From IMG/VR virus record IMGVR_UViG_3300009103_000137, positions 1 through 26,264 of that record: a stretch of DNA of 26,264 nucleotides. One strand, written 5' to 3'. The position numbers and the translations under genes were made by a program. The notes under the pieces are model-generated. The model had not been told where the DNA came from, searched no databases, and worked only from the letters and a program-made list of their open reading frames with translations. Below, piece after piece: positions 3,557-25,020 of the stretch. Source of the stretch: a virus. Positions within the stretch are counted from its first letter, which is position 1. Each line of letters begins with the position of its first letter.

Positions 3557-6500
3557 CTATGTAAGATTGTCAGGAGTATTGGGAAGATTTAAACGAGGAT
3601 CATTACTATTAATATCAGTACCAGCCCTCTGAATTGCAGATGGAGGTGTAGTGACCATAGCATCAATACTTTCTTGCATTGTATCATATATCTGTACTAA
3701 TTCACCAGCTGTCTCAAAGAAACCAGCATATTTAATACCATCTTTATAAAATACAGCACCATAGTATGGTTTACCATCATAGTATCCAGTCTGTTTCAAT
3801 CCAACCAAATCAGTTACCTGAATTAAAGTATTAGGATCTGCTAAAGGTGGAGTACGACGAGGAGCCAATTTTGCTATAAAATCCGCACCTATACCAGTAG
3901 GTACTTTAGGTTCTTGAGTTTTTACTCTTATATTTGGGTAACTAGTATAACCACTAGGTCTAGCTGGTTCTCCAACAGCAGGTCCTGGTACTGAAACCTT
4001 TGTTATTTGTCCAAAATTACCAAACTCTGGTTCATAACAAATCTCTCCACCACCAGGAGTTTCAATACATACTAAATCTCCTGGACCATAATTTATCCCC
4101 TCATCTGTAGGAATAATTTCATCCAACTCTAACTGAACAGGGTATGAAGGTGGTCCAGCAGGAGGAGGTTGAGGAGGTGGTGCAGTGTAACCATTACCAG
4201 GATCAATTACTGTTACATCAGTAACAATACCAACTCCATCTATTAACTTAGGACAAGGTGGAGGAATAAGAATCGCAGAAACACCAACCGGATTCACTGT
4301 CCATGGTTTACTAAAAGCTTTTCCTGTCTTTGGATCTGTTTCCCTTATATTAACTTTTTTAGTAATCTTAGCATTAACATATGTTGGATTATTCCAAAAA
4401 GTAGCATCTGGCAGTCCTGTACCATTATAAAGAACTATTTGCAGAGTTCTTTTTCCTTTAACAATACGAGGTGAACCATAAACTACATCAGGATGAGGTG
4501 GTAAATTAGATCCAATCTCCCATGTTAAAGGAACCTGAGCTTTTAATACTTCAACACCATCAACTTTAATAGTTGCTATATTATCTGCCGCAGCCCTTAT
4601 ATCATAATTTCCAGTCTCCGGAAAATCAACATTATTCCATGTTAATGTCCAAGTTTTATCTTGATAATTCTCACGATAATCTTCAACCGTTGTAAACGAA
4701 GGGGTAAGATATGGACCCAATTCCCCCGATCTATAAGTTGCTATATCAGGACCTTCATAAGTGACTCCATTCTTTTGAGATCCACTGGTCATTCCTCTAC
4801 CATATTTTATTACTGTCTTATTAGTAGGAGGAACTTTAAATTTACACTTATTTCCTGCAAAATCATAAAATTCTCCTTGAGTTGCAGAACATACAATATC
4901 TTGCCAATCATTATCAGTCCACTCTTCCATCTCTACTATATTTTTTCCTCTATTCCTTAATCTAATATTAGAATCTAAATTACCACCAGCAGTTATATAA
5001 TTATCATCAGATAAAGTTACAGTATGAGTCTCACTACCAAATTCTTGATATTCCTGAGTCCATGTTGTATTCCCAATTTTAATAGAATCTACTGCTTTAC
5101 CATCATTCCAAGGTTTATCATCATAACTGTAAGTTAAAGTAATCTTTACATCCTTTCCTTTAACATTGATAGATTTACCATCAGAAGAAAATGATGCGGT
5201 TCCCCCAACAACATTATCAATAGTAAAAGCACCATTGGTATCACCCCTATGACCATCTTTTAATTCAACTCTTGTATTATTTTGCCTAACTCTAATAGTC
5301 TTATTTGCTGGATTCAATCCTATATACTGAATTCCAATTCCAGTAGCAACTTTTCTCTTATTGCTACTGGTAAATGTAACATTATAAATCTTTCCTGTCT
5401 CAACACTTTTAGTTACTGTACTGTTTATTTGAGGTCCTTTATATGTTTTAGATTCAGATAAAATTTCATCAATTGTAATTCCATTAGCAAAATCTGCCTC
5501 TGAAGTAGTCTTAAATGTAACATCTACATTCTTTGGTCCATCAACAATCTCTGATGTTTGAGATTGTGATGATGCCCAATTAGCAGTATGAAAAATTGTC
5601 TTGTCTATAGTTGTCCAAACAAATGTTTCTTCATTTTTTAATTCAATAACTAGCTCATGCTTTCCTTTCTCCAACATTACCATTATCTTCTCTGGACCTT
5701 CATTTTTAAAATGATCAAACTGTTTAATAATCTCTCTTCCATCAATAATAAATTTACCAAAATTATCTACAGTTCCTTGTATACCATAAAATCCCCTATA
5801 AGGAAGATCAATAGTCCATTTGTTACGCCATACAATACCAGATCCATCGGTTCCTTTTAAGTTTAAAGGGGGTATAGGTGATATAGAATACTTATTCATA
5901 AACTTACCCCAAGCCCCATGTTTTACAGGCCACCATTTCTTTTCAGAAGGAAAGGTGGGTGGCATTCTAGTAGTCCAAATAGGATTATTAGGACATCTTC
6001 CCTCTTGTTCAGGTGCCGGTTGAACAGGTCTTGGTGGCATAGGAGCATCAATAACTAATGCAATACCCATTGGATTTTCATTCCAAGAGAGAGCAGAAAC
6101 AACTTCTTCCTCTACTTGAATGGATTGAACTTGAATATCTACAGCCAAAGCCATAGGATTACCAGCTGCCAATGCTCTACCAGGAATTTGCTCTAATACT
6201 GCTTTTAATGTATAAGAACCAGCTTTAAAAAATTTTATATCAACAGATTTTCCAGTTGAAGTAGTTCCATCACCTCTCCTAAAGAATCCCTCCTTTGTTA
6301 CCACAATATCAGGACTACCTGTGCGGCTAAAAGTAAGAACTACATTATCATCCACCATTGTTGAAATAGCATAATTGCCATCTTTCGGAAACTTAATATT
6401 ATTCCAAACAATTTCATGGAATCCTGCATACTCACTAGTAGATGCATTAGGACCTGGAGGATAAGCAGATTCTGTAGTAGTAATTGTCCTCTTTTCTTCT

Positions 6501-9238
6501 AATACATTTACACCAGTAATCTTAAGAGTAGCATTGGTATCAAATCCACCAATCACATCATCATCCATTGCCAGTGTTGTAGAATCAACTGTCTTATACC
6601 CAGAACCCTTAGTACCACCTAAAACTTTTATAGGATACTGCTCACCTGAAGTAAAAATCCCAGATCCTCTCTTCAGATCTTTCCTCGCTCCCTCTCTTCT
6701 TTTAAGATGAACTTCACCATCATCAGATTTTATCCTCACCTCCCTTAAGGCTATTCCTTTATAATTCCAAATATCATTTACATTTAATTCAAAATTAACC
6801 TTTACCCTTCCATCACCAATTACTTTAAGATAAGTTATCTCTCCTTCCTTTACCATCTTTACAATGGGTTTTTTAGGTTTAAAAAGAACCTCTTTCTCTA
6901 CTTTTCTCTGTATCTTTGCAACAGGAGTAGGATCAAAAGGTAATACCCCGTATCTATTGATAAAATTACCATCATTCCTACCAGGAGCAGAATTAATCTT
7001 CCACAATTGCCTATTAGCTTTATTAATCCAATCAACTGTATTAAAAATAGTTCCTATTTTTTCCAATTGATTTAATTCTGATACTGAAATCACTGATTCT
7101 TCTGGAGGATCAATGGTGATCACATGGCTTTCATTTCCACTTCTACCTTCCTGTGTCCAAGTAGTTTTACCAATCTTAATAGATTCTACAGCAACTCCAG
7201 CTCTTGAAGGTTTATCATTCCAATCTAATACAATAGTAGCTTTTCCTAATCCTTCAATCTTTCTACCATTTGAAGAAAACTTCAATTCTCCAGATGTAAT
7301 ATTAAAAGAACAATTAGTGTCATTTCCATGACTATCCTTTAATTCAATTCTTTTTCCCCCATCAACCACTCTAATTGGTTTATTTGCAGCATTTAATCCA
7401 ACATATACTATATCAATTCCATCTTCCCCGGAAGAAGAATCTCCCGTATCCCCTATCATTTTCTTTACCTTCTTCATTACAGGAACATTAAGTAAATCCA
7501 CTGTAATCTTATGAACCCCTGGACTCATATGTTGTTTAATAGATTTTGGTCCACTATTCCAATGATCTAAATCAGAAATAAACTTCTGATCAATATACAA
7601 TTTTGCTAGATTATCTCTTTGTCCTTTAAAAATATAATCCCCTTCCCAAGGAAAATTCTCTTCCCATTCAAAAGTATAAGTTTTTCCTGCATTATCAGAT
7701 CCCTTTACATTTGAAGGAGGAACCGGTGAAATTGCAAACCGATTCATAAAACTATCATTAATTGTATATTTTGTTATGGGTTTAGTTTTATCTGTCCTTG
7801 GAACAGGGGGAGCTTTATAAGCCGAAGAATCTTCCAATCTATACGTTAACTCAAAAGTATCACGCTTTTGATGAAGTGTTCTAGATTTCTTTCCTGCTTT
7901 AAAAATTCCTAAAGAAGCCTGTATTTGCAAATCATCGTCATCATCTCTAGATCCAACCACATCAGTAAAAATAGCAGAACTAGTTCCTCCTTCAGACTGC
8001 ACTAATCCTCTATTACCAAAAGTAGATGGCTTCAATAGCCCTTGCTCTACTAGTCCTTCTCCTGCATCTCTTACAGATGTTACATTATAAGTAATATTTC
8101 TTTGTACTTTAATTTTTATTTTATGTAGTTTATGCTCTTTATCTCCCTTATAATCATCAGCAACTATAGAAAAACGATGAGTTCCATTTTCTGATATAAA
8201 ATTAAATTTAAGACCATAATTATCTCCACCTGACATACGAATAGTAAAAGGAACCTCCATAAAATTCTCTGCCATTGGAGGTGGAGGTGCTCCAGCCGCA
8301 CTCGCATACCCTGTAATTTCAGCACTACCACCCCAAGCATGATGCTGAACATCATGCTTTTCTCTAGAAGTTTTATCAGGAGATGTGATCTTTAATGGTG
8401 GAGTATGTCTAGTTGTCCACCACTCCAAAATTCTTCCACTTTTTATATCAACTTTAGTTCCAGGTTTTAAAGATGTAAGTTGTTTTTGATATCGATCTAT
8501 TTCTAAAGCAATAGGATCCGATGCCTTTCCAATATAAGATGATGGATCCCAAGGTCCTAAATCCTGTCCGTCCGGACCATATCTCTGCCCATACCCAACT
8601 TCTATAGGGGCACATGTTACAGTATCATATTCTTCAAAATCTTCTAAATCATCATACTCTTCCAGAATCGAAGTGCCTCCACCAACATAAGCACGAATAA
8701 CTGCACCCGATCCCACACCTTTATCATCTTCCACATTTACAATTGGAGGATATTGATATCCAAATCCACCATGAACTAAATCAATAGCTAGTAAAGATCC
8801 ATCATTTCCAATAATAGGATTTGCTTGAACCCCTACTCCACCACCTCCATAAAAATGAACTCTAGTTGAATCTAAATCTAATTGTTCTGATGTTAACAAT
8901 TGAGTACTTCCACCTTGAGCATTAGCTTCTAAGGCTCCAACAGTCTCGTCAGTACTTTGTCTTGTATTTCCCTCAAGATTTAATCCTACAACTCCACCAC
9001 ATCCATCAGCCGCATTATTTGAAGGAAGCATATCCTCCGGCTTTAACTTATTAACCTCATTAATGTTTAAGTATAATATTTTTTCTCTATTTCTAAAAAT
9101 AAATTGAGCACCAGGATTTAATTTGGCATGCTTATTAGCCTCATGAATACTAACTCCATCCACCAAGCCCCTATCAGTCGAAATATAACCGACACGAATA
9201 TCACATTTAGTTGCTGGTCCGAAGAGATTAAATGCCAT
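3557..9238 (-). CDS. Giant modular tail/baseplate structural protein, 1893 residues
   Basis: The largest gene in the window. The N-terminal 75 residues are a compact domain, followed near residues 130-190 and 1660-1780 by Gly/Pro-rich repeats of the GFGYQYPP and GNGYTAPP type seen in marine phage tail proteins. In between are at least four PA14-like beta units whose signature is F-P-x2-G-x-Y-x-I followed by D-N and I-D-G (near residues 540, 945, 1150 and 1540). Two of these units, near 498-700 and 1113-1397, belong to a duplicated larger module ending in SIKIG(K/N)TTWTQE. PA14 domains often bind sugars, so receptor or surface polysaccharide binding is plausible. It follows gp5 (late motif at 9244-9251) and precedes the EF-hand protein; a side or central fibre of the baseplate is inferred. 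Confidence 0.8.
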   Translation of the reverse strand: MAFNLFGPATKCDIRVGYISTDRGLVDGVSIHEANKHAKLNPGAQFIFRNREKILYLNINEVNKLKPEDMLPSNNAADGCGGVVGLNLEGNTRQSTDETVGALEANAQGGSTQLLTSEQLDLDSTRVHFYGGGGVGVQANPIIGNDGSLLAIDLVHGGFGYQYPPIVNVEDDKGVGSGAVIRAYVGGGTSILEEYDDLEDFEEYDTVTCAPIEVGYGQRYGPDGQDLGPWDPSSYIGKASDPIALEIDRYQKQLTSLKPGTKVDIKSGRILEWWTTRHTPPLKITSPDKTSREKHDVQHHAWGGSAEITGYASAAGAPPPPMAENFMEVPFTIRMSGGDNYGLKFNFISENGTHRFSIVADDYKGDKEHKLHKIKIKVQRNITYNVTSVRDAGEGLVEQGLLKPSTFGNRGLVQSEGGTSSAIFTDVVGSRDDDDDLQIQASLGIFKAGKKSRTLHQKRDTFELTYRLEDSSAYKAPPVPRTDKTKPITKYTINDSFMNRFAISPVPPSNVKGSDNAGKTYTFEWEENFPWEGDYIFKGQRDNLAKLYIDQKFISDLDHWNSGPKSIKQHMSPGVHKITVDLLNVPVMKKVKKMIGDTGDSSSGEDGIDIVYVGLNAANKPIRVVDGGKRIELKDSHGNDTNCSFNITSGELKFSSNGRKIEGLGKATIVLDWNDKPSRAGVAVESIKIGKTTWTQEGRSGNESHVITIDPPEESVISVSELNQLEKIGTIFNTVDWINKANRQLWKINSAPGRNDGNFINRYGVLPFDPTPVAKIQRKVEKEVLFKPKKPIVKMVKEGEITYLKVIGDGRVKVNFELNVNDIWNYKGIALREVRIKSDDGEVHLKRREGARKDLKRGSGIFTSGEQYPIKVLGGTKGSGYKTVDSTTLAMDDDVIGGFDTNATLKITGVNVLEEKRTITTTESAYPPGPNASTSEYAGFHEIVWNNIKFPKDGNYAISTMVDDNVVLTFSRTGSPDIVVTKEGFFRRGDGTTSTGKSVDIKFFKAGSYTLKAVLEQIPGRALAAGNPMALAVDIQVQSIQVEEEVVSALSWNENPMGIALVIDAPMPPRPVQPAPEQEGRCPNNPIWTTRMPPTFPSEKKWWPVKHGAWGKFMNKYSISPIPPLNLKGTDGSGIVWRNKWTIDLPYRGFYGIQGTVDNFGKFIIDGREIIKQFDHFKNEGPEKIMVMLEKGKHELVIELKNEETFVWTTIDKTIFHTANWASSQSQTSEIVDGPKNVDVTFKTTSEADFANGITIDEILSESKTYKGPQINSTVTKSVETGKIYNVTFTSSNKRKVATGIGIQYIGLNPANKTIRVRQNNTRVELKDGHRGDTNGAFTIDNVVGGTASFSSDGKSINVKGKDVKITLTYSYDDKPWNDGKAVDSIKIGNTTWTQEYQEFGSETHTVTLSDDNYITAGGNLDSNIRLRNRGKNIVEMEEWTDNDWQDIVCSATQGEFYDFAGNKCKFKVPPTNKTVIKYGRGMTSGSQKNGVTYEGPDIATYRSGELGPYLTPSFTTVEDYRENYQDKTWTLTWNNVDFPETGNYDIRAAADNIATIKVDGVEVLKAQVPLTWEIGSNLPPHPDVVYGSPRIVKGKRTLQIVLYNGTGLPDATFWNNPTYVNAKITKKVNIRETDPKTGKAFSKPWTVNPVGVSAILIPPPCPKLIDGVGIVTDVTVIDPGNGYTAPPPQPPPAGPPSYPVQLELDEIIPTDEGINYGPGDLVCIETPGGGEICYEPEFGNFGQITKVSVPGPAVGEPARPSGYTSYPNIRVKTQEPKVPTGIGADFIAKLAPRRTPPLADPNTLIQVTDLVGLKQTGYYDGKPYYGAVFYKDGIKYAGFFETAGELVQIYDTMQESIDAMVTTPPSAIQRAGTDINSNDPRLNLPNTPDNLT
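5050..5905 (-). repeat. Internal protein module copy 2 of the giant tail protein
   Basis: Encodes about residues 1112-1397: KFMNKYSISPIPPLNLKG, a PA14-like unit with DNFGKFIIDG, then IQYIGLNPANKTIRV, RVELKDGHRGDTN and SIKIGNTTWTQE. It matches copy 1 at about 7150-7750 in the same order, with roughly 85 extra residues inserted between the PA14-like and Ig-like halves. Boundaries are approximate. Confidence 0.65.
7150..7750 (-). repeat. Internal protein module copy 1 of the giant tail protein
   Basis: Encodes about residues 497-697: SFMNRFAISPVPPSNVKG, a PA14-like unit with DNLAKLYIDQ, then IVYVGLNAANKPIRV, RIELKDSHGNDTN and SIKIGKTTWTQE. The order of motifs is the same as in copy 2 at about 5050-5905. 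The similarity is clear at protein level, so this is an old duplication. Boundaries are approximate. Confidence 0.65.
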
Positions 9239-9243
9239 AGGTA

Positions 9244-9251
9244 TATTTATT
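9244..9251 (-). promoter_or_regulatory. Late promoter motif AATAAATA
   Basis: The minus strand reads TTTTAATAAATATACCTATGG. The AATAAATA core ends five bases before the ATG of the giant tail gene, and the TAA stop of gp5 (9252-9250) overlaps it. One mismatch to TATAAATA; as at 466-473 the predicted transcript would be nearly leaderless. Confidence 0.45.
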
Positions 9252-11175
9252 AAAACATATCAAACTCAAAATCATCCATTACCTTACTTCCATCCTCCTT
9301 CAACTTAGTAAACTGTTCAGTTTGCTCTGATGTTAAAACATTGGCAGTTACATTTTTCAAATCAACATCAAGCGTTCCTTTAGGAATTGTAGCAAATGGA
9401 ATCTTAGGTATAGGATTAGGAATCTTGCCCTCAACAAGATTACCAAGTTGTTTAGTTACAGCTGCTTCAACTGCTTTAGGACTAGGTAATTGAGTTTGTG
9501 ATTGACCTGCTCCCCCACTAGCAAAAGTATAAAAATCAGAAACAGCCGGATTAGGTGGAAGTTCAAATGGAAATATATTTGATGTTATATTCTCAAAATT
9601 CAGTGCTTGAGTAATGCTTCCATTAATATTTCCCAACTTAGAAAGCATACCACCTAATGCACCACTCACACCTGCCATTTCTTTCATAGTATCTCCTATA
9701 AAACCATCTATACCCCCAATTATATCATTATTAGTTTTATCAATTTGGTCTCTACTTGCTGCCATAACAGAAGCTATAACATCTTCTGAAGTACATATAG
9801 GAACTCTAGGAAGACCCTTGGGAGGTTGAGGATTATTAGGATCTACAGGATCAGGATTAAGAGCCATATCCATTGCCTGTTCTATCAATCCAGGAGTACC
9901 TGTTTCAGGATCTCCATCCAAATTTAATATTTTACTTATTACACCCTCCAATAATCCTCCCATTCCACCAGTAATTCCATTAAAACTAGATAATATTTCT
10001 TGTTCCATAGTTTCTTTCAAATCAAGAAACTTATATCTCTCTGCAGATGGTAAAGCAGAAACTGCTGCAGTCATTTCTTTATTCAAAGCTTTTTGATTAA
10101 ATTCCATGACTTTATCCATCACAACCTTCATATACTTGGATTGTTGCTTAGAGGAATCACTAATTAATTTTTTTAAATTTTTAACTCCTTCAGTCATAGA
10201 TACTGCATCAGTATAACTTGCCAATGCATTCATATGTTTATCAATAGCCTGTACCATATTATCCATGTCAGTCTGCATTGCTTTATTAGCAGATTCAACA
10301 AGATTATCAGGTTTCATTAAAACCCTTTTAAAATGATAAACCGCATCCTGCTTTATATTAGCTGCAGTTTGAAGATGCATAGCTTCACCTTCAACAGTAG
10401 CTCCAGGTTTAACTGGAGATCGTGGAGAATTTGCTTCTTGTGTTTTATTAGCAGTATATGTAGAAACTCTATTCTTTATTAAATTTGTTGCCGCACTAAT
10501 ATCTAATCCCCTCTTCTCTGCTTCATTTTTTGCACTCTGAATAGCAGCTAATTGTCCCTCTGTAGGATTCCGATCACTAGGTAATCCAAACATATTTAAG
10601 GCAACCCCTAGAGGTGCTGTAGCTGTCTCTAATGCATCTTCCTTACTCCTAGGTTTCTCAGTTCCTTTATCATGGTCTGGTGGTCTAGAAGTTGCTTCTT
10701 TAGAAGGTTCTCCTCCTTTTTGTTTAGCATATCCACTAGTTCCTAGTGTTCCATCTTTCTCTTTCGTAACTCTACTATCACCAATAGTAGTTGCTAATGG
10801 AGTTTGGGTATTATTTCCCAAAATACCCATAATAACAGGTTGCTGTTGCTGTGGACCATCTAAAAAGAATCCAAAAACAATATTACCCTGCCTAACCATT
10901 GGGGTTTGTCCAGAAGCTTGAAGATAAGCTCCTGCGGTAACAGGATACATGATATTTGCCCAAGGTAAATTCTTAGATGCAATTGCTTCTTCACCTAAAT
11001 CATGAAGACCAAAAATTCTTACCTTATATCTGTATCCCCATCCAGGAATACTTTCTTTACTCCTAAACTTTCCAGGGTTAATATTATCACGCCAAGTGGA
11101 ATCATCAGCGATCTGACCAATCCACCAATTAAATCCCTGCCCTACAAAACCCTGATCGAATAATCCTACGTCCAT
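9250..11175 (-). CDS. 5: Baseplate hub protein gp5-like, OB-fold domain without visible lysozyme
   Basis: 641 residues. The N-terminal 130 residues match the gp5 OB-fold domain of T4-like phages: WWIGQIADDSTW, YRYKVRIFGLHDLGEE, NLPWANIMYPVTAGAY and a GNIVFGFFLDGP...PVIMGILG stretch. In T4, gp5 forms the hub and spike with gp27 and carries a lysozyme domain. Here the remaining 500 residues are helical, Gln/Lys/Met-rich text, with no segment I can match to T4 lysozyme, followed by a Pro-rich C-terminus. Loss of the lysozyme domain appears common in marine T4-like phages. It lies just after the CP12-like gene and close to the gp27-like gene, as expected for a hub partner. Confidence 0.85.
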   Translation of the reverse strand: MDVGLFDQGFVGQGFNWWIGQIADDSTWRDNINPGKFRSKESIPGWGYRYKVRIFGLHDLGEEAIASKNLPWANIMYPVTAGAYLQASGQTPMVRQGNIVFGFFLDGPQQQQPVIMGILGNNTQTPLATTIGDSRVTKEKDGTLGTSGYAKQKGGEPSKEATSRPPDHDKGTEKPRSKEDALETATAPLGVALNMFGLPSDRNPTEGQLAAIQSAKNEAEKRGLDISAATNLIKNRVSTYTANKTQEANSPRSPVKPGATVEGEAMHLQTAANIKQDAVYHFKRVLMKPDNLVESANKAMQTDMDNMVQAIDKHMNALASYTDAVSMTEGVKNLKKLISDSSKQQSKYMKVVMDKVMEFNQKALNKEMTAAVSALPSAERYKFLDLKETMEQEILSSFNGITGGMGGLLEGVISKILNLDGDPETGTPGLIEQAMDMALNPDPVDPNNPQPPKGLPRVPICTSEDVIASVMAASRDQIDKTNNDIIGGIDGFIGDTMKEMAGVSGALGGMLSKLGNINGSITQALNFENITSNIFPFELPPNPAVSDFYTFASGGAGQSQTQLPSPKAVEAAVTKQLGNLVEGKIPNPIPKIPFATIPKGTLDVDLKNVTANVLTSEQTEQFTKLKEDGSKVMDDFEFDMF

Positions 11176-11178
11176 AAA

Positions 11179-11460
11179 TTATTCGTCGTATACTCTACAC
11201 TCAAAAGCATCTGGATGATCGTCACAATAGACTTCAAGATGTTGATCCTGATGTCTTGTATGGTAATCATTAATCTTTGCATCACTAGGATCTATCTCTT
11301 CACCCTTATGATACTCATCATAATATGCATGAGCAGATTCTAAATCTTCCTTCGAATATTCTAACATACCATGATTGATATGTTCTTTATTATCTTTTGG
11401 ATCGATATAGACTTCATGATCTAAATCGTGCTTAATGTCTGACATAATTTTTTTTAGCAT
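11179..11460 (-). CDS. CP12-like protein (Calvin-cycle regulator), 93 residues
   Basis: The last 20 residues, ending VYCDDHPDAFECRVYDE, match the C-terminal end of CP12: two cysteines eight residues apart followed by R-V-Y-D-E. In plants and cyanobacteria this redox-switched loop inserts into GAPDH, and CP12 then recruits phosphoribulokinase, shutting down the Calvin cycle. Cyanophage CP12 proteins are thought to redirect host carbon to the pentose phosphate pathway for nucleotide synthesis. The N-terminal cysteine pair and the central AWD-VEEL-type motif of plant CP12 are absent; the rest is acidic, His-rich and probably disordered. The start overlaps the end of the gp27-like gene by seven bases; Met6 (11445) is an alternative start, after a run of eight A. 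It is odd to find it between hub genes gp27 and gp5. Confidence 0.75.
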   Translation of the reverse strand: MLKKIMSDIKHDLDHEVYIDPKDNKEHINHGMLEYSKEDLESAHAYYDEYHKGEEIDPSDAKINDYHTRHQDQHLEVYCDDHPDAFECRVYDE

Positions 11461-12878
11461 AAAGGTGTTTTATCTTTGGTAGGACTTCCGTCTCTTCCAA
11501 AGGAGTCTCTAATCAAATTCAGTTTAGTATATGTTTCTTTAGAAGTAATAAAGTGACATAAATCTGATATAATATATAGACCCCCATCCTCCTTATTTAC
11601 CTTGTCATTCTTGGTATCAGATTCTAATTTGGGGATGTCAACAAAAACAGTGTCCCCAGCATGTAAAGAAAAATCTCCAGGCAAAGTAATAATTATTTCG
11701 GAAGCATATAATTGATTATACCTCATAAGAGACTGATTGAAAATCTTAGCATAATCAAAATTTAATTTCTTTGATTTTCCTAACTGAGTCTTAGGATCAC
11801 CCCAATTCAATTGACCTGTGGTAGTAAAATTAAAAGTAGTCCTAGAGAATTTAGCATTAGTTCCTTCCTTACCTTCATTAAATTCTTTATTAAAAGCAGG
11901 GAAACTTTTTCCCGCAAGTTTTAAATACTCATTATCAACCTTTTCCTTACCCTCATCACCCAAAATATCTATTGTAGAGGTTGTCCATGTAGTATCAAAA
12001 GGATTAAATAACTCACTTTTTGTAGAATATGCACCTAATTGCAATTTCTTTTGAACATTAATTCTATTGTCTGTTGATAATGAAAGAGCCTTTACATCAT
12101 ATCCTTTTGGAATTCCCTTAGAAGTTGTATCTGGAGTTTCATTATAAATGATTGCTTTTCTCTGCTTTTGACTCAATAAAGTATCAATTGATTTAAAATT
12201 AAATCCTTTGGATGTTTCCCATAAAAAATATCCAGCACTAGATCCTTCTTTTTGATTTTTTGCCGAAACAGCTTTCTTCGACAACTCATTCATAACATAA
12301 AATGGTTTTTTATTATTACCAATATGAGTAAATTCCCCTCCAGGTTGTTTTGTATCTTCAATATTTGCTTCTTCATATTTTTCTGATTTAAGAAAATCTT
12401 TTAAAATTGACTTAACAGATTCTGAAATTTCTCCAGCTAAACAAACATTAACCCTTACTTCCTCATTATCAATAAATTCTCTGGATACTAAATCCAATTC
12501 ATATGTTCTACTTGTAGATTCATCATTTGCAGACAAAGCAGTAATTTTGTTTATATACAAACTATTTTTTTTCTGCTCACTAAATTCTAAAGTATTGCAA
12601 TTATTATCAGAAAATTTTAAATTAACCTTTTCTTCACCAGTAATAGGTAATCCTTCAACTGCACTTACTCTTTTATTACCTTCTGGTAAAGTATTACCTG
12701 CATCAGTAAAAATTACTGATGCCCTTACTGTATCTTGTAATATACTCTCCCAATATTGTAATCTAACTGTTCCACCTAATACACTTACGCTTTTAGAACG
12801 ATCTTTATTAGACTTAATATCTACTCGTTTAACCTCTGCAGGAGTAGAACTTCTTGAAGTAACTGATTGAACTGGCAT
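11454..12878 (-). CDS. Baseplate hub protein, gp27-like
   Basis: 474 residues. Domain style and order fit the gp27/gpD hub family: an early strand-rich part (VSVLGGTVRLQYWESILQDT, RASVIFTDAG), a helical middle (SVKSILKDFLKSEKY, FYVMNELSKKAV, GYFLWETSKGFNFKSIDTLL) and a C-terminal beta domain with LHAGDTVFVDIP and GGLYIISDLCHFI. In T4 gp27 trimers form a torus joining the spike (gp5) to the tail tube. It is preceded by a GTAAATA late motif and a clear ribosome site (AGAGGATATAACT then ATG). The similarity is by pattern, not by long identical stretches, so the gene number is left out. Confidence 0.75.
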   Translation of the reverse strand: MPVQSVTSRSSTPAEVKRVDIKSNKDRSKSVSVLGGTVRLQYWESILQDTVRASVIFTDAGNTLPEGNKRVSAVEGLPITGEEKVNLKFSDNNCNTLEFSEQKKNSLYINKITALSANDESTSRTYELDLVSREFIDNEEVRVNVCLAGEISESVKSILKDFLKSEKYEEANIEDTKQPGGEFTHIGNNKKPFYVMNELSKKAVSAKNQKEGSSAGYFLWETSKGFNFKSIDTLLSQKQRKAIIYNETPDTTSKGIPKGYDVKALSLSTDNRINVQKKLQLGAYSTKSELFNPFDTTWTTSTIDILGDEGKEKVDNEYLKLAGKSFPAFNKEFNEGKEGTNAKFSRTTFNFTTTGQLNWGDPKTQLGKSKKLNFDYAKIFNQSLMRYNQLYASEIIITLPGDFSLHAGDTVFVDIPKLESDTKNDKVNKEDGGLYIISDLCHFITSKETYTKLNLIRDSFGRDGSPTKDKTPLC

Positions 12879-12897: not shown

Positions 12898-12904
12898 TAT
12901 TTAC
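12898..12904 (-). promoter_or_regulatory. Late promoter motif GTAAATA
   Basis: The minus strand reads TGAGTAAATATAAGTAAGAGG. The TAAATA core starts directly after the TGA stop (12907-12905) of the tape-measure-like gene and is followed by AGAGGAT, the ribosome site of the gp27-like gene. Confidence 0.5.
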
Positions 12905-18533: not shown

Positions 18534-18541
18534 TATAAATA
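18534..18541 (+). promoter_or_regulatory. Late promoter motif TATAAATA for gp4 operon
   Basis: Exact TATAAATA on the plus strand, 22 bases before the gp4 ATG at 18564, inside a 31-base divergent gap. On the minus strand TATATAAG at 18557-18550 is a possible weaker core for the gp54-like gene, leaving both divergent promoters within about 25 bases. Confidence 0.65.
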
Positions 18542-22740: not shown

Positions 22741-23324
22741 AGTACGATTTTTTGGAGAATCTTTTTATAACGTGGTACATCTATATTTAGGAAAGGACTG
22801 TACTTTTTAATTTTTCGACTGACGGTTTCCCATACAGGATCATTTAATTTTTTGTCCCAATCTTTCCTATACTCAAATATTCTATCACATATTACTAGAG
22901 TTTCAAGTGATATTGTCCCACCAAGATAATTCTTCAAAATTAGTGGATGTCCCTCAGAACAATCAAATACCTCATTTACCTTATTTTGCCCAAAAAGGGA
23001 ATTTGCCTCTTCTTTGAAAATATACGAAAGTGACTGAATTTTCTTTTTCCAATCAACATATCGTCCTTCACCTTCTTTGATCATTTCACCAATCCACATA
23101 GTTCCTGGATCTGTCGTATATACGAAATTAGAGACAAAAAACTCTTCTACCTCTTTATCGTTTTTTTGCCGTGCAAACTTTTCAAACCAAAATCGGTCCT
23201 TCCTCTTATAAAAGGCTTTTTGGGTTGCTCTGGTTTTACCACGATACTTGATATAATCATAATGATCCTTAGTAAAGTGATTCTTCAGAGAGAGATAACA
23301 ACGGTAGGCATCAAAAGGCATCAT
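22737..23324 (-). CDS. 59: Helicase loader gp59
   Basis: 195 residues, matching gp59: MMPFDAYRCYLSLKNHFTKD with HYDYIKYRGKTRATQKAFYK, RKDRFWFEKFARQ, EEFFVSNFVYTTDPGTMWIG, and the C-terminal GHPLILKNYLGGTISLETLV with DDPVW-like text (NDPVWETVSRKIKKYSPFLN). In T4, gp59 binds fork DNA and gp32 and loads the gp41 helicase. It overlaps the preceding oxygenase gene by 14 bases and the DUF1825-type gene by four, so the group is translated as one operon ending in gp32. The start could be Met1 or Met2. Confidence 0.9.
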   Translation of the reverse strand: MMPFDAYRCYLSLKNHFTKDHYDYIKYRGKTRATQKAFYKRKDRFWFEKFARQKNDKEVEEFFVSNFVYTTDPGTMWIGEMIKEGEGRYVDWKKKIQSLSYIFKEEANSLFGQNKVNEVFDCSEGHPLILKNYLGGTISLETLVICDRIFEYRKDWDKKLNDPVWETVSRKIKKYSPFLNIDVPRYKKILQKIVL

Positions 23325-23838
23325 TTATTTTATAGTAAATATTTCCAGCAATTACAGATCTTCCCTTACATCTATTTTCTGGTACATGATGAAATAAATT
23401 TGCCGGAAAAATCACCATATTACCAGCCTCTGCCTTTACCCTTTTACCACTACTAGTAAAAACCAAAGGTGAGGATCCTTTAGGAGTATTTACAAAATAA
23501 ACAAACGCAAAAGAAGAAGGAACATGATGATGAGATGTCTGCTGATGACCTTCATTATACACCTGACCCCATATTTGTTGCAAGGTAAGAGTATAATCAG
23601 CTAATATGGCAGGAACAGCATTAACGGGAGAATGTTTAAAAGAAAGAATAATATTACACGCATAATCACCAATTAATTTAAACTCCTTTATACCCATACA
23701 ATGCCATTCTGTCATTAATGCACCCATATCAGGCTGCACTGCTTTCTCTAGAATAATCTCATGTAATTTAGGATTTAACTTCTCTGCATATGGATACTTA
23801 ATAATATGAACTTCTTTCTTATCTGATATTATCATCAT
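23311..23838 (-). CDS. 2OG-Fe(II) oxygenase of the H-x-H type, tandem copy A
   Basis: 175 residues. The core resembles the 2OG-FeII_Oxy_5 (TIGR02466-like) family: His103 and His105 in TSHHHVPSSFAFVYFV, a strand with PKGSSPLVF, EAGNMVIFPANLFHHVPEN with the distal His at about 150-151, and Arg160 in KGRSVIAGNIYY. The aspartate or glutamate of the usual H-x-D/E triad is a histidine here and in both neighbours. Substrate unknown. It overlaps copy B by four bases (ATGA) and gp59 by 14. It shares a 25-base identical DNA stretch with copy B, so the two arose by duplication. Confidence 0.8.
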   Translation of the reverse strand: MMIISDKKEVHIIKYPYAEKLNPKLHEIILEKAVQPDMGALMTEWHCMGIKEFKLIGDYACNIILSFKHSPVNAVPAILADYTLTLQQIWGQVYNEGHQQTSHHHVPSSFAFVYFVNTPKGSSPLVFTSSGKRVKAEAGNMVIFPANLFHHVPENRCKGRSVIAGNIYYKINDAF

Positions 23839-24380
23839 TCAACATAAAGATTACCAGCTAAAACTATTCTACCATCACATTTGTTTTTTGGCACATGATG
23901 ACAATTATTTCCATGAAAAAGAACCAACTTCCCCTCATTTGGAGTAACCCTTTTACCACTTGTAGAAAATACTAAAGGAGAAGATCCTTTTGGAGATTTT
24001 ACAAAATAAACAAACGCAAAAGCAGCAGGAAAATGTGCATGGGATACAGTATAATCTCCTTTATTATACAATGCGGCCCAACACTCTGTTAGTTTATAAT
24101 TATATCCTGCAAAACCCCTAACCAAACCAATAATCCATTGTTTAATTAAATTAAGACTAGGAGTCTCAATTCTATTACCAGACTGCAGGGCCTTTACATT
24201 AGTATTACTCCCATCTAAATTAGTACATTTTTCTGGGTCTAAAAACTTAATTCCCAAATCTGCCATCTCATTGACTAACTTTTCATTTAAAGATTCAAAA
24301 TATGGATGATTATACACAAATACACCCAATTTTTCATTACATATAAAAGTATCATTATAAGATCCTATCCAAACTGACAT
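23835..24380 (-). CDS. 2OG-Fe(II) oxygenase of the H-x-H type, tandem copy B
   Basis: 181 residues. Parallel to copy A: His114 and His116 in TVSHAHFPAAFAFVYFV, PKGSSPLVFSTSGKRV, EGKLVLFHGNNCHHVPKN with the distal His at about 161-162, and Arg171 in DGRIVLAGNLYVE. The N-terminal 100 residues differ much more from copy A than the core does, including an acidic, Asn-rich stretch near residues 47-70, so substrate specificity may differ. The start lies one base after the stop of the third oxygenase upstream. Function is inferred only at the level of an iron-dependent oxygenase. Confidence 0.8.
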   Translation of the reverse strand: MSVWIGSYNDTFICNEKLGVFVYNHPYFESLNEKLVNEMADLGIKFLDPEKCTNLDGSNTNVKALQSGNRIETPSLNLIKQWIIGLVRGFAGYNYKLTECWAALYNKGDYTVSHAHFPAAFAFVYFVKSPKGSSPLVFSTSGKRVTPNEGKLVLFHGNNCHHVPKNKCDGRIVLAGNLYVE

Positions 24381-24381
24381 C

Positions 24382-25020
24382 TTATGCTTTGGTATTCCCG
24401 TCTACCGAAACTAGATGTTGCTCTATAAGAGATACTTGCCCTCTTATTATATTAAAAGCAAGAGTAATTCTTTCTTTATTAATAGTCTGAGGTTCTACAT
24501 GATGGAAAGTGGATGCAGGAAACATAACCATTGTTCCATCCTTACCATCATAACCAATATCATAATCATCAAATACAGTAGGGTGTCCATGATTCTTATA
24601 ATAAATCACACCTGATAGTAATCCAGCATGATTATGTGTTGGATTATCATCTCCTTTATATGCAAAGTTAGTCCAAATATCATAAGAATCAAAATGTCCA
24701 TGCCATTTCCTTAGGGAATAATCACGATGAGAACCTCCCATTCCCCAATACTTTGCAGTCAACCTCAAAACCCATGCCAACCAAAAAGATTGCTCAATTA
24801 AATGAGGAGAAATAGAACACTGATATGAATTATGTTTCTTCCCATCCACAGAAAGATACCCTACATTCTCATGGGCTTTCAATGCTGCTAATGGATGATT
24901 CTTAAACCTCCTACTCTCCTTTACCCAACCATCAATCTCTTTCCGAATCTGTGAAGGAATCTTTGCTACCATTACAGGACATCCCTGCTTTAACTTTTCC
25001 ATAACCAAAGGGTCATTCAT
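24382..25020 (-). CDS. 2OG-Fe(II) oxygenase of the H-x-H type, more distant third copy
   Basis: 212 residues. Same core pattern: His129 and His131 in NPTHNHAGLLSGVIYYKNHG, HPTVFDDYDIGYDGKDGTMV, MFPASTFHHVEPQ with the distal His at about 173-174, and Arg184 in KERITLAFNIIRG. The SGVIYY text is closer to typical family members than copies A and B. An N-terminal helical part (residues 5-50) and a WHGHFDSYDIW segment precede the core. The ATG directly follows the TAG of the 56-residue gene; GAGAGGG about seven bases upstream could serve as ribosome site. The substrate is unknown. Confidence 0.8.
   Translation of the reverse strand: MNDPLVMEKLKQGCPVMVAKIPSQIRKEIDGWVKESRRFKNHPLAALKAHENVGYLSVDGKKHNSYQCSISPHLIEQSFWLAWVLRLTAKYWGMGGSHRDYSLRKWHGHFDSYDIWTNFAYKGDDNPTHNHAGLLSGVIYYKNHGHPTVFDDYDIGYDGKDGTMVMFPASTFHHVEPQTINKERITLAFNIIRGQVSLIEQHLVSVDGNTKA

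Follow-up and report, generated by a model that had tools for sequence, protein, structure and literature searches.

The minus-strand gene at positions 11179–11445 of the window, i.e., the 26,264 nucleotides of the viral record IMGVR_UViG_3300009103_000137, is very probably a mobile, phage-borne auxiliary metabolic gene of the CP12 type, in a long, His-rich form whose oxidised tail would dock on the GAPDH of the host and inhibit the Calvin cycle. The CP12 tail is the means by which plants and cyanobacteria switch off a carbon-fixing enzyme, and phage CP12 has been proposed to be among the main levers for the redirection of ocean carbon fixation by cyanophages. The assignment is carried by the homology of the tail, the strict conservation of its motif, the position and mobility of the gene, and its absence from the hub of other phages. 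Both the kind of gene and its genomic site were already known; the long form with a conserved His-rich N-terminal half is new here.

The surrounding gene set identifies the window as T4-like cyanomyovirus DNA. Upstream of the CP12 gene lies a gene for a gp27-like tail protein (11454–12878, minus strand; phrog_350, ‘tail protein’ in PHROGs, 1.4e-80) and downstream the gene for the gp5-like baseplate hub and tail lysozyme (9250–11175, minus strand; phrog_33098, 6.4e-172), so the hub neighbours named in the preliminary description are correct. Further genes encode a baseplate hub protein, tail tube, gp4-like head closure protein, DNA end protector, baseplate tail tube cap, baseplate wedge, ssDNA-binding protein and helicase loader. 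Three other features of the window can be mentioned. Downstream of gp5, a virion structural protein of 1893 amino acids (3557–9238) contains three PA14-domain stretches and is possibly a glycan-binding fibre or baseplate protein. At 23311–25020, three tandem ORFs of 175, 181 and 212 amino acids, each matching the 2OG-Fe(II) oxygenase family phrog_81, form an apparent tandem expansion. Lastly, the ORFs at 1089–1448 and 1986–2840 share the families phrog_17490 and phrog_28536 and have an oxygenase/endonuclease-like ORF between them, which looks like a duplication with insertion.

The ORF originally described (11179–11460, minus strand) is present and encodes 93 amino acids from the ATG at 11460. 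Alignment of starts indicates that nearly all relatives use the equivalent of the ATG at 11445 (MSDIKHDL...). This is probably the true start, giving a coding sequence of 88 amino acids (11179–11445 including the stop codon), in agreement with the Pfam CP12 match and with the match to phrog_2603, a PHROGs family of unknown function, which spans residues 6–93 of the 93-residue ORF. The optional upstream start (11446–11460, minus strand) is unconserved in the relatives and is the source of the reported overlap with the gp27-like gene, which is probably an annotation artefact, as the start at 11445 leaves an 8-nt gap to the stop codon of that gene (11454–11456). The reported spacing to gp5 does hold, with three bases between the CP12 stop codon and the gp5 start at 11175.

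The likeness to CP12 resides in approximately the last 25 amino acids (11182–11259, minus strand), which contain C74-DDHPDAFE-C83-RVYDE. The Pfam CP12 profile (PF02672) matches with 33.6 bits (E 7e-8), above its curated cut-off of 22.7 bits, by aligning residues 68–92 in 93-residue numbering with profile positions 46–70 of 70; homology is limited to these positions and does not cover the whole domain. With phmmer, the tail matches the CP12 chains of GAPDH complexes in PDB entries 3zdf and 6gfo and, more weakly, 5nmu and 3qv1, 12 of 19 residues being identical to the 3zdf peptide. All 88 long-form sequences on which the motif and His counts rest have CxxxPxxxxC with the ending [RK]VY[DE], and all have exactly two cysteines, both in the tail. 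The C-terminal motif noted earlier (Cys, eight residues, C-R-V-Y-D-E) is thus correct and above chance, and the profile search bears out the reading of a CP12-like protein with a GAPDH-binding tail. As the match covers only about 25 of the 88 residues, it might be thought that an unrelated acidic phage protein has acquired its tail by convergence. This is extremely improbable, given the score above the curated cut-off, the motif kept strictly in 88/88 sequences, the genomic slot shared with bona fide phage CP12 and the fact that every identified match is in cyanophages.

On its sequence, the protein is classed as a CP12-tailed variant and not as a canonical CP12. The N-terminal Cys pair of canonical CP12 is absent from all 88 long forms, and the AWD_VEE core motif is found in none of them, as expected from the preliminary description, in which the PRK-binding motif was said to be missing. 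However, cyanophage CP12s have been noted to depart from the canonical features (PMC3906501), so the absence of AWD_VEE excludes a canonical CP12, not a phage CP12. The N-terminal Cys pair is missing from some genuine CP12s as well (PMC9406205).

The remainder of the protein is a His-rich N-terminal region (11260–11445, minus strand), in which no homology to any CP12 is detectable. Its description as acidic and His-rich agrees with the composition (26 D/E against 8 K/R, and 10 His). Seven of the 10 His residues are invariant among the 88 long-form sequences, being conserved as strongly as the tail. Comparison of this region with the N-terminus of canonical phage CP12 by hhalign gave an E-value of 0.018, while shuffled controls reached values down to 0.014. 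Whole-length homology to short phage CP12 was therefore rejected, the likeness seen by eye ([ST]xE[ED]L...Y...H) not rising above shuffled columns. The unusual N-terminus claimed earlier is hence supported and is the most interesting part of the protein. The structure model has low confidence throughout (pLDDT 55), with a possible hairpin at residues 10–25 and a helix at 32–45, and a PDB fold search with this model gave no match; such a model is as expected for a conditionally disordered protein. No description of the His-rich half was found in the literature searched, and the long form may have been described before. Extreme conservation of this extra half, against 20–30% identity in the adjoining hub genes, points to a specific and testable function.

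The low-confidence model and the N-terminal half, which CP12 biology does not account for, count against a plain CP12 explanation. One tentative idea, which is compatible with that explanation and adds a second function to it, is a protein of two modules: the tail would anchor to GAPDH, while the His-rich half would have a separate task, such as binding to a further host protein or to a metal (Cu, Zn, Fe), and might help to oxidise the protein's own tail in the light. The invariant His residues and the lack of homology to CP12 N-termini fit this idea, as does the observation that algal CP12 binds Cu2+, which catalyses CP12 oxidation (PMC9406205). However, there is no match to a metal-site family, the fold has low confidence, the His residues are scattered and not arranged in a known motif, and their conservation could reflect a protein partner instead.

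At the gp27|gp5 junction, where the gene was described as ‘wedged’, CP12 is not out of place. In DSL-LC03 and S-PRM1, the gp27-like gene and gp5 directly flank a short CP12 (phrog_627), and in Syn9 and S-CREM1 it occupies this junction together with cpeT or lipoprotein A and a tRNA. Proximity to tRNAs has been reported for cp12 and talC; a scan of 42 loci showed none within 4 kb of the gene, and the window has none either. Both hub neighbours are adjacent in 61 of 80 IMG/VR loci of the short form, a sample chosen by similarity to a small alignment and not a census, and in 31 of 86 loci of the long form, neither hub gene being seen in about half of the latter. The junction is the commonest phage cp12 site in these loci, and talC and cp12 have been located ‘near gp5’ or near psbA (Sullivan et al., 2010; PMC3037559). 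The window gene thus occupies a site at which T4-like cyanophages are known to carry cp12. In two relatives (L006 and L064, at about 8000–8530), CP12 is found approximately 3 kb beyond the hub and is followed, after 5 nt, by a homolog of the window ORF at 483–752, a further site of the same cassette.

The history of the gene is uncoupled from that of its neighbours. For those pairs among 31 hub loci whose gp27 is divergent, the median identity is 77% for CP12, compared to 27% for gp27 and 21% for gp5. In 26 non-redundant loci, distances of gp27 and gp5 agree (Mantel rho 0.84), whereas those of CP12 do not correlate significantly with either gp27 or gp5 (rho 0.07 and -0.01), a lack of correlation that is partly noise because CP12 is short. 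The window itself provides an example that is not noise: its hub genes are closest to those of L011 (59 and 62% identity), while its CP12 shares 93% identity with the CP12 of L013, although the gp27 of L013 is only 41% identical. The gene thus seems to be exchanged between backbones at one constant site, at which short and long forms alternate, and the gp27|gp5 junction can be regarded as an exchange site for CP12 alleles. Recent transfer as the sole cause of the high CP12 identity was rejected, as the fraction of identical codons at shared residues is 67% compared to 57% expected at saturation. With codons only slightly unsaturated, constraint and exchange both contribute.

These data also bear on the suggestion that the protein has a role in the virion, either as a small component of the baseplate hub or as a passenger delivered with the DNA, its CP12 tail being reused for docking in the particle or for immediate action on entry. 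The close spacing to a hub gene on either side (8 and 3 nt) and the late-type promoter box preceding gp27 are in line with such a role. Nevertheless, it is very unlikely, as gp27 abuts gp5 without any insert in P-HM2 and P-SSM2, where cp12 is found elsewhere, far away, so the gene is not a conserved part of the hub of related phages. Moreover, hub genes are missing from the vicinity in about half of the long-form loci, CP12 identity does not follow that of gp27 or gp5, and short and long forms swap at the junction.

NTAAATA boxes, a late-type promoter motif, can serve to map the probable transcription units of the phage. In the window they occur at 282, 782, 12904 and 17759 on the minus strand and at 18535 and 19430 on the plus strand, and boxes lie 25–38 nt upstream of gp26, gp27, gp4, gp48 and others. 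Of the minus-strand boxes, 7/17 are within 60 nt upstream of a start, compared to 4.2% of positions (p 3e-6). A GTAAATA late-type box (12898–12904, minus strand) 26 nt upstream of the gp27-like start is, as a consensus match only, the candidate promoter for gp27, CP12 and gp5, and no late-type box lies directly upstream of CP12 in the window. From this arrangement, CP12 probably shares a transcript with gp27 and gp5. Among 26 distinct long-form hub loci, 11 do have a box for CP12 itself (background 0.6%), and a box is also found upstream of cp12 in Syn9, S-CREM1, S-PRM1 and P-HM2. In P-HM2, expression of cp12 coincides with that of the middle genes (PMC5082946), so the presence of the box cannot separate middle from late expression, and late timing based on the box alone was rejected. 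Of the late co-transcription proposed earlier, the joint transcript is hence plausible, but the box does not settle the timing; the supposed tension between late hub genes and an early-acting metabolic inhibitor is likewise not established.

By analogy with known CP12 biology (PMC9406205, PMC9623430, PMC3906501), the preferred explanation of a CP12-type metabolic gene would work as follows. A long-form cp12, placed at gp27|gp5, the cassette site that is usual in cyanomyoviruses, would be expressed in the infected cyanobacterium, after which a disulfide would form between the two C-terminal cysteines. The closed loop would dock on the photosynthetic GAPDH of the host and inhibit it, slowing the Calvin cycle, sparing ATP and NADPH and pushing carbon through the pentose phosphate pathway toward phage nucleotide synthesis. 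As the protein lacks the features that recruit PRK, GAPDH is probably its only target. Such a GAPDH-only form would be workable, as CP12 without the N-terminal Cys pair still works in Synechocystis, where GAPDH inhibition outweighs PRK binding (PMC9623430). GAPDH binding, redox control and the metabolic effect are thus expected properties of the phage protein.

In the light, thioredoxin should reduce the disulfide of the tail, which is at odds with phage CP12 acting in the light. It is conceivable, though unlikely, that the His-rich half, by binding a redox-active metal, re-oxidises the tail, which would let the phage protein go on inhibiting GAPDH in the light, under conditions where host CP12 is reduced and lets go of the enzyme. 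If true, this would account for the working of a dark-acting inhibitor in an infection that depends on light.

Relatives of the long form were found in 83 phage records, including PSSM2_066 of P-SSM2, and in IMG/VR, where 80 of 139 stretches were kept. A genome-contig scan yielded only three contigs with the long form, binned in Actinomycetota, Flavobacteriales and Gammaproteobacteria MAGs, which are probably misbinned cyanophage contigs. In that scan cyanobacterial genomes matched the tail only, and a host origin of the long form was rejected. Since phrog_2603 is labelled ‘unknown function’ or ‘hypothetical’, counts of CP12 in phages of this group come out too low. P-SSM2 is named as a CP12 carrier in a paper that also states ‘transaldolase and CP12 = T4-GCs 63, 337’ (PMC3037559). 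PSSM2_066 is T4-GC 63, P-HM2 CP12 is 337 and P-HM2 talC is 239, which suggests that the P-SSM2 long form was probably already recognised as CP12 by Sullivan et al. (2010). Besides this form, phrog_2603 contains a third CP12-tailed type of 65–76 amino acids, with tails like C-DDHPGSPM-C-KVFDE that score just under the Pfam cut-off; it occurs in S-CAM1, ACG-2014f and Sf phages and is annotated as hypothetical.

Among known systems, PSSM2_066 (phrog_2603), the sole CP12 match in P-SSM2, has 70% identity to the window protein over the whole length, although that gene lies among hypothetical genes at 53.6 kb and not at the hub. With the short cyanophage CP12 (phrog_627; Syn9 gp17, S-CREM1 ORF50, P-HM2_227), the long form shares a phage-borne gene, the CxxxPxxxxC tail, the absence of the N-terminal Cys pair, the gp27|gp5 junction in many genomes and an NTAAATA box that is often upstream. 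The short form differs in its length of 70–75 amino acids, in an N-terminal half that fits Pfam CP12 (profile positions 3–70 or 9–70) and in lacking both the His-rich N-terminus and the IND[YW]HxRH insert. Cyanobacterial and plant CP12 (PF02672) have the C-terminal GAPDH-binding tail in common with the long form, which lacks their AWD_VEE core and N-terminal Cys pair and has an unrelated N-terminal half. Lastly, GapB and adenylate kinase 3 (ADK3) also carry a CP12 tail on otherwise unrelated sequence, and their CP12-like tails dock on GAPDH (PMC9406205). These proteins are enzymes, whereas the remainder of the long form is a His-rich, probably disordered segment of 65 residues.
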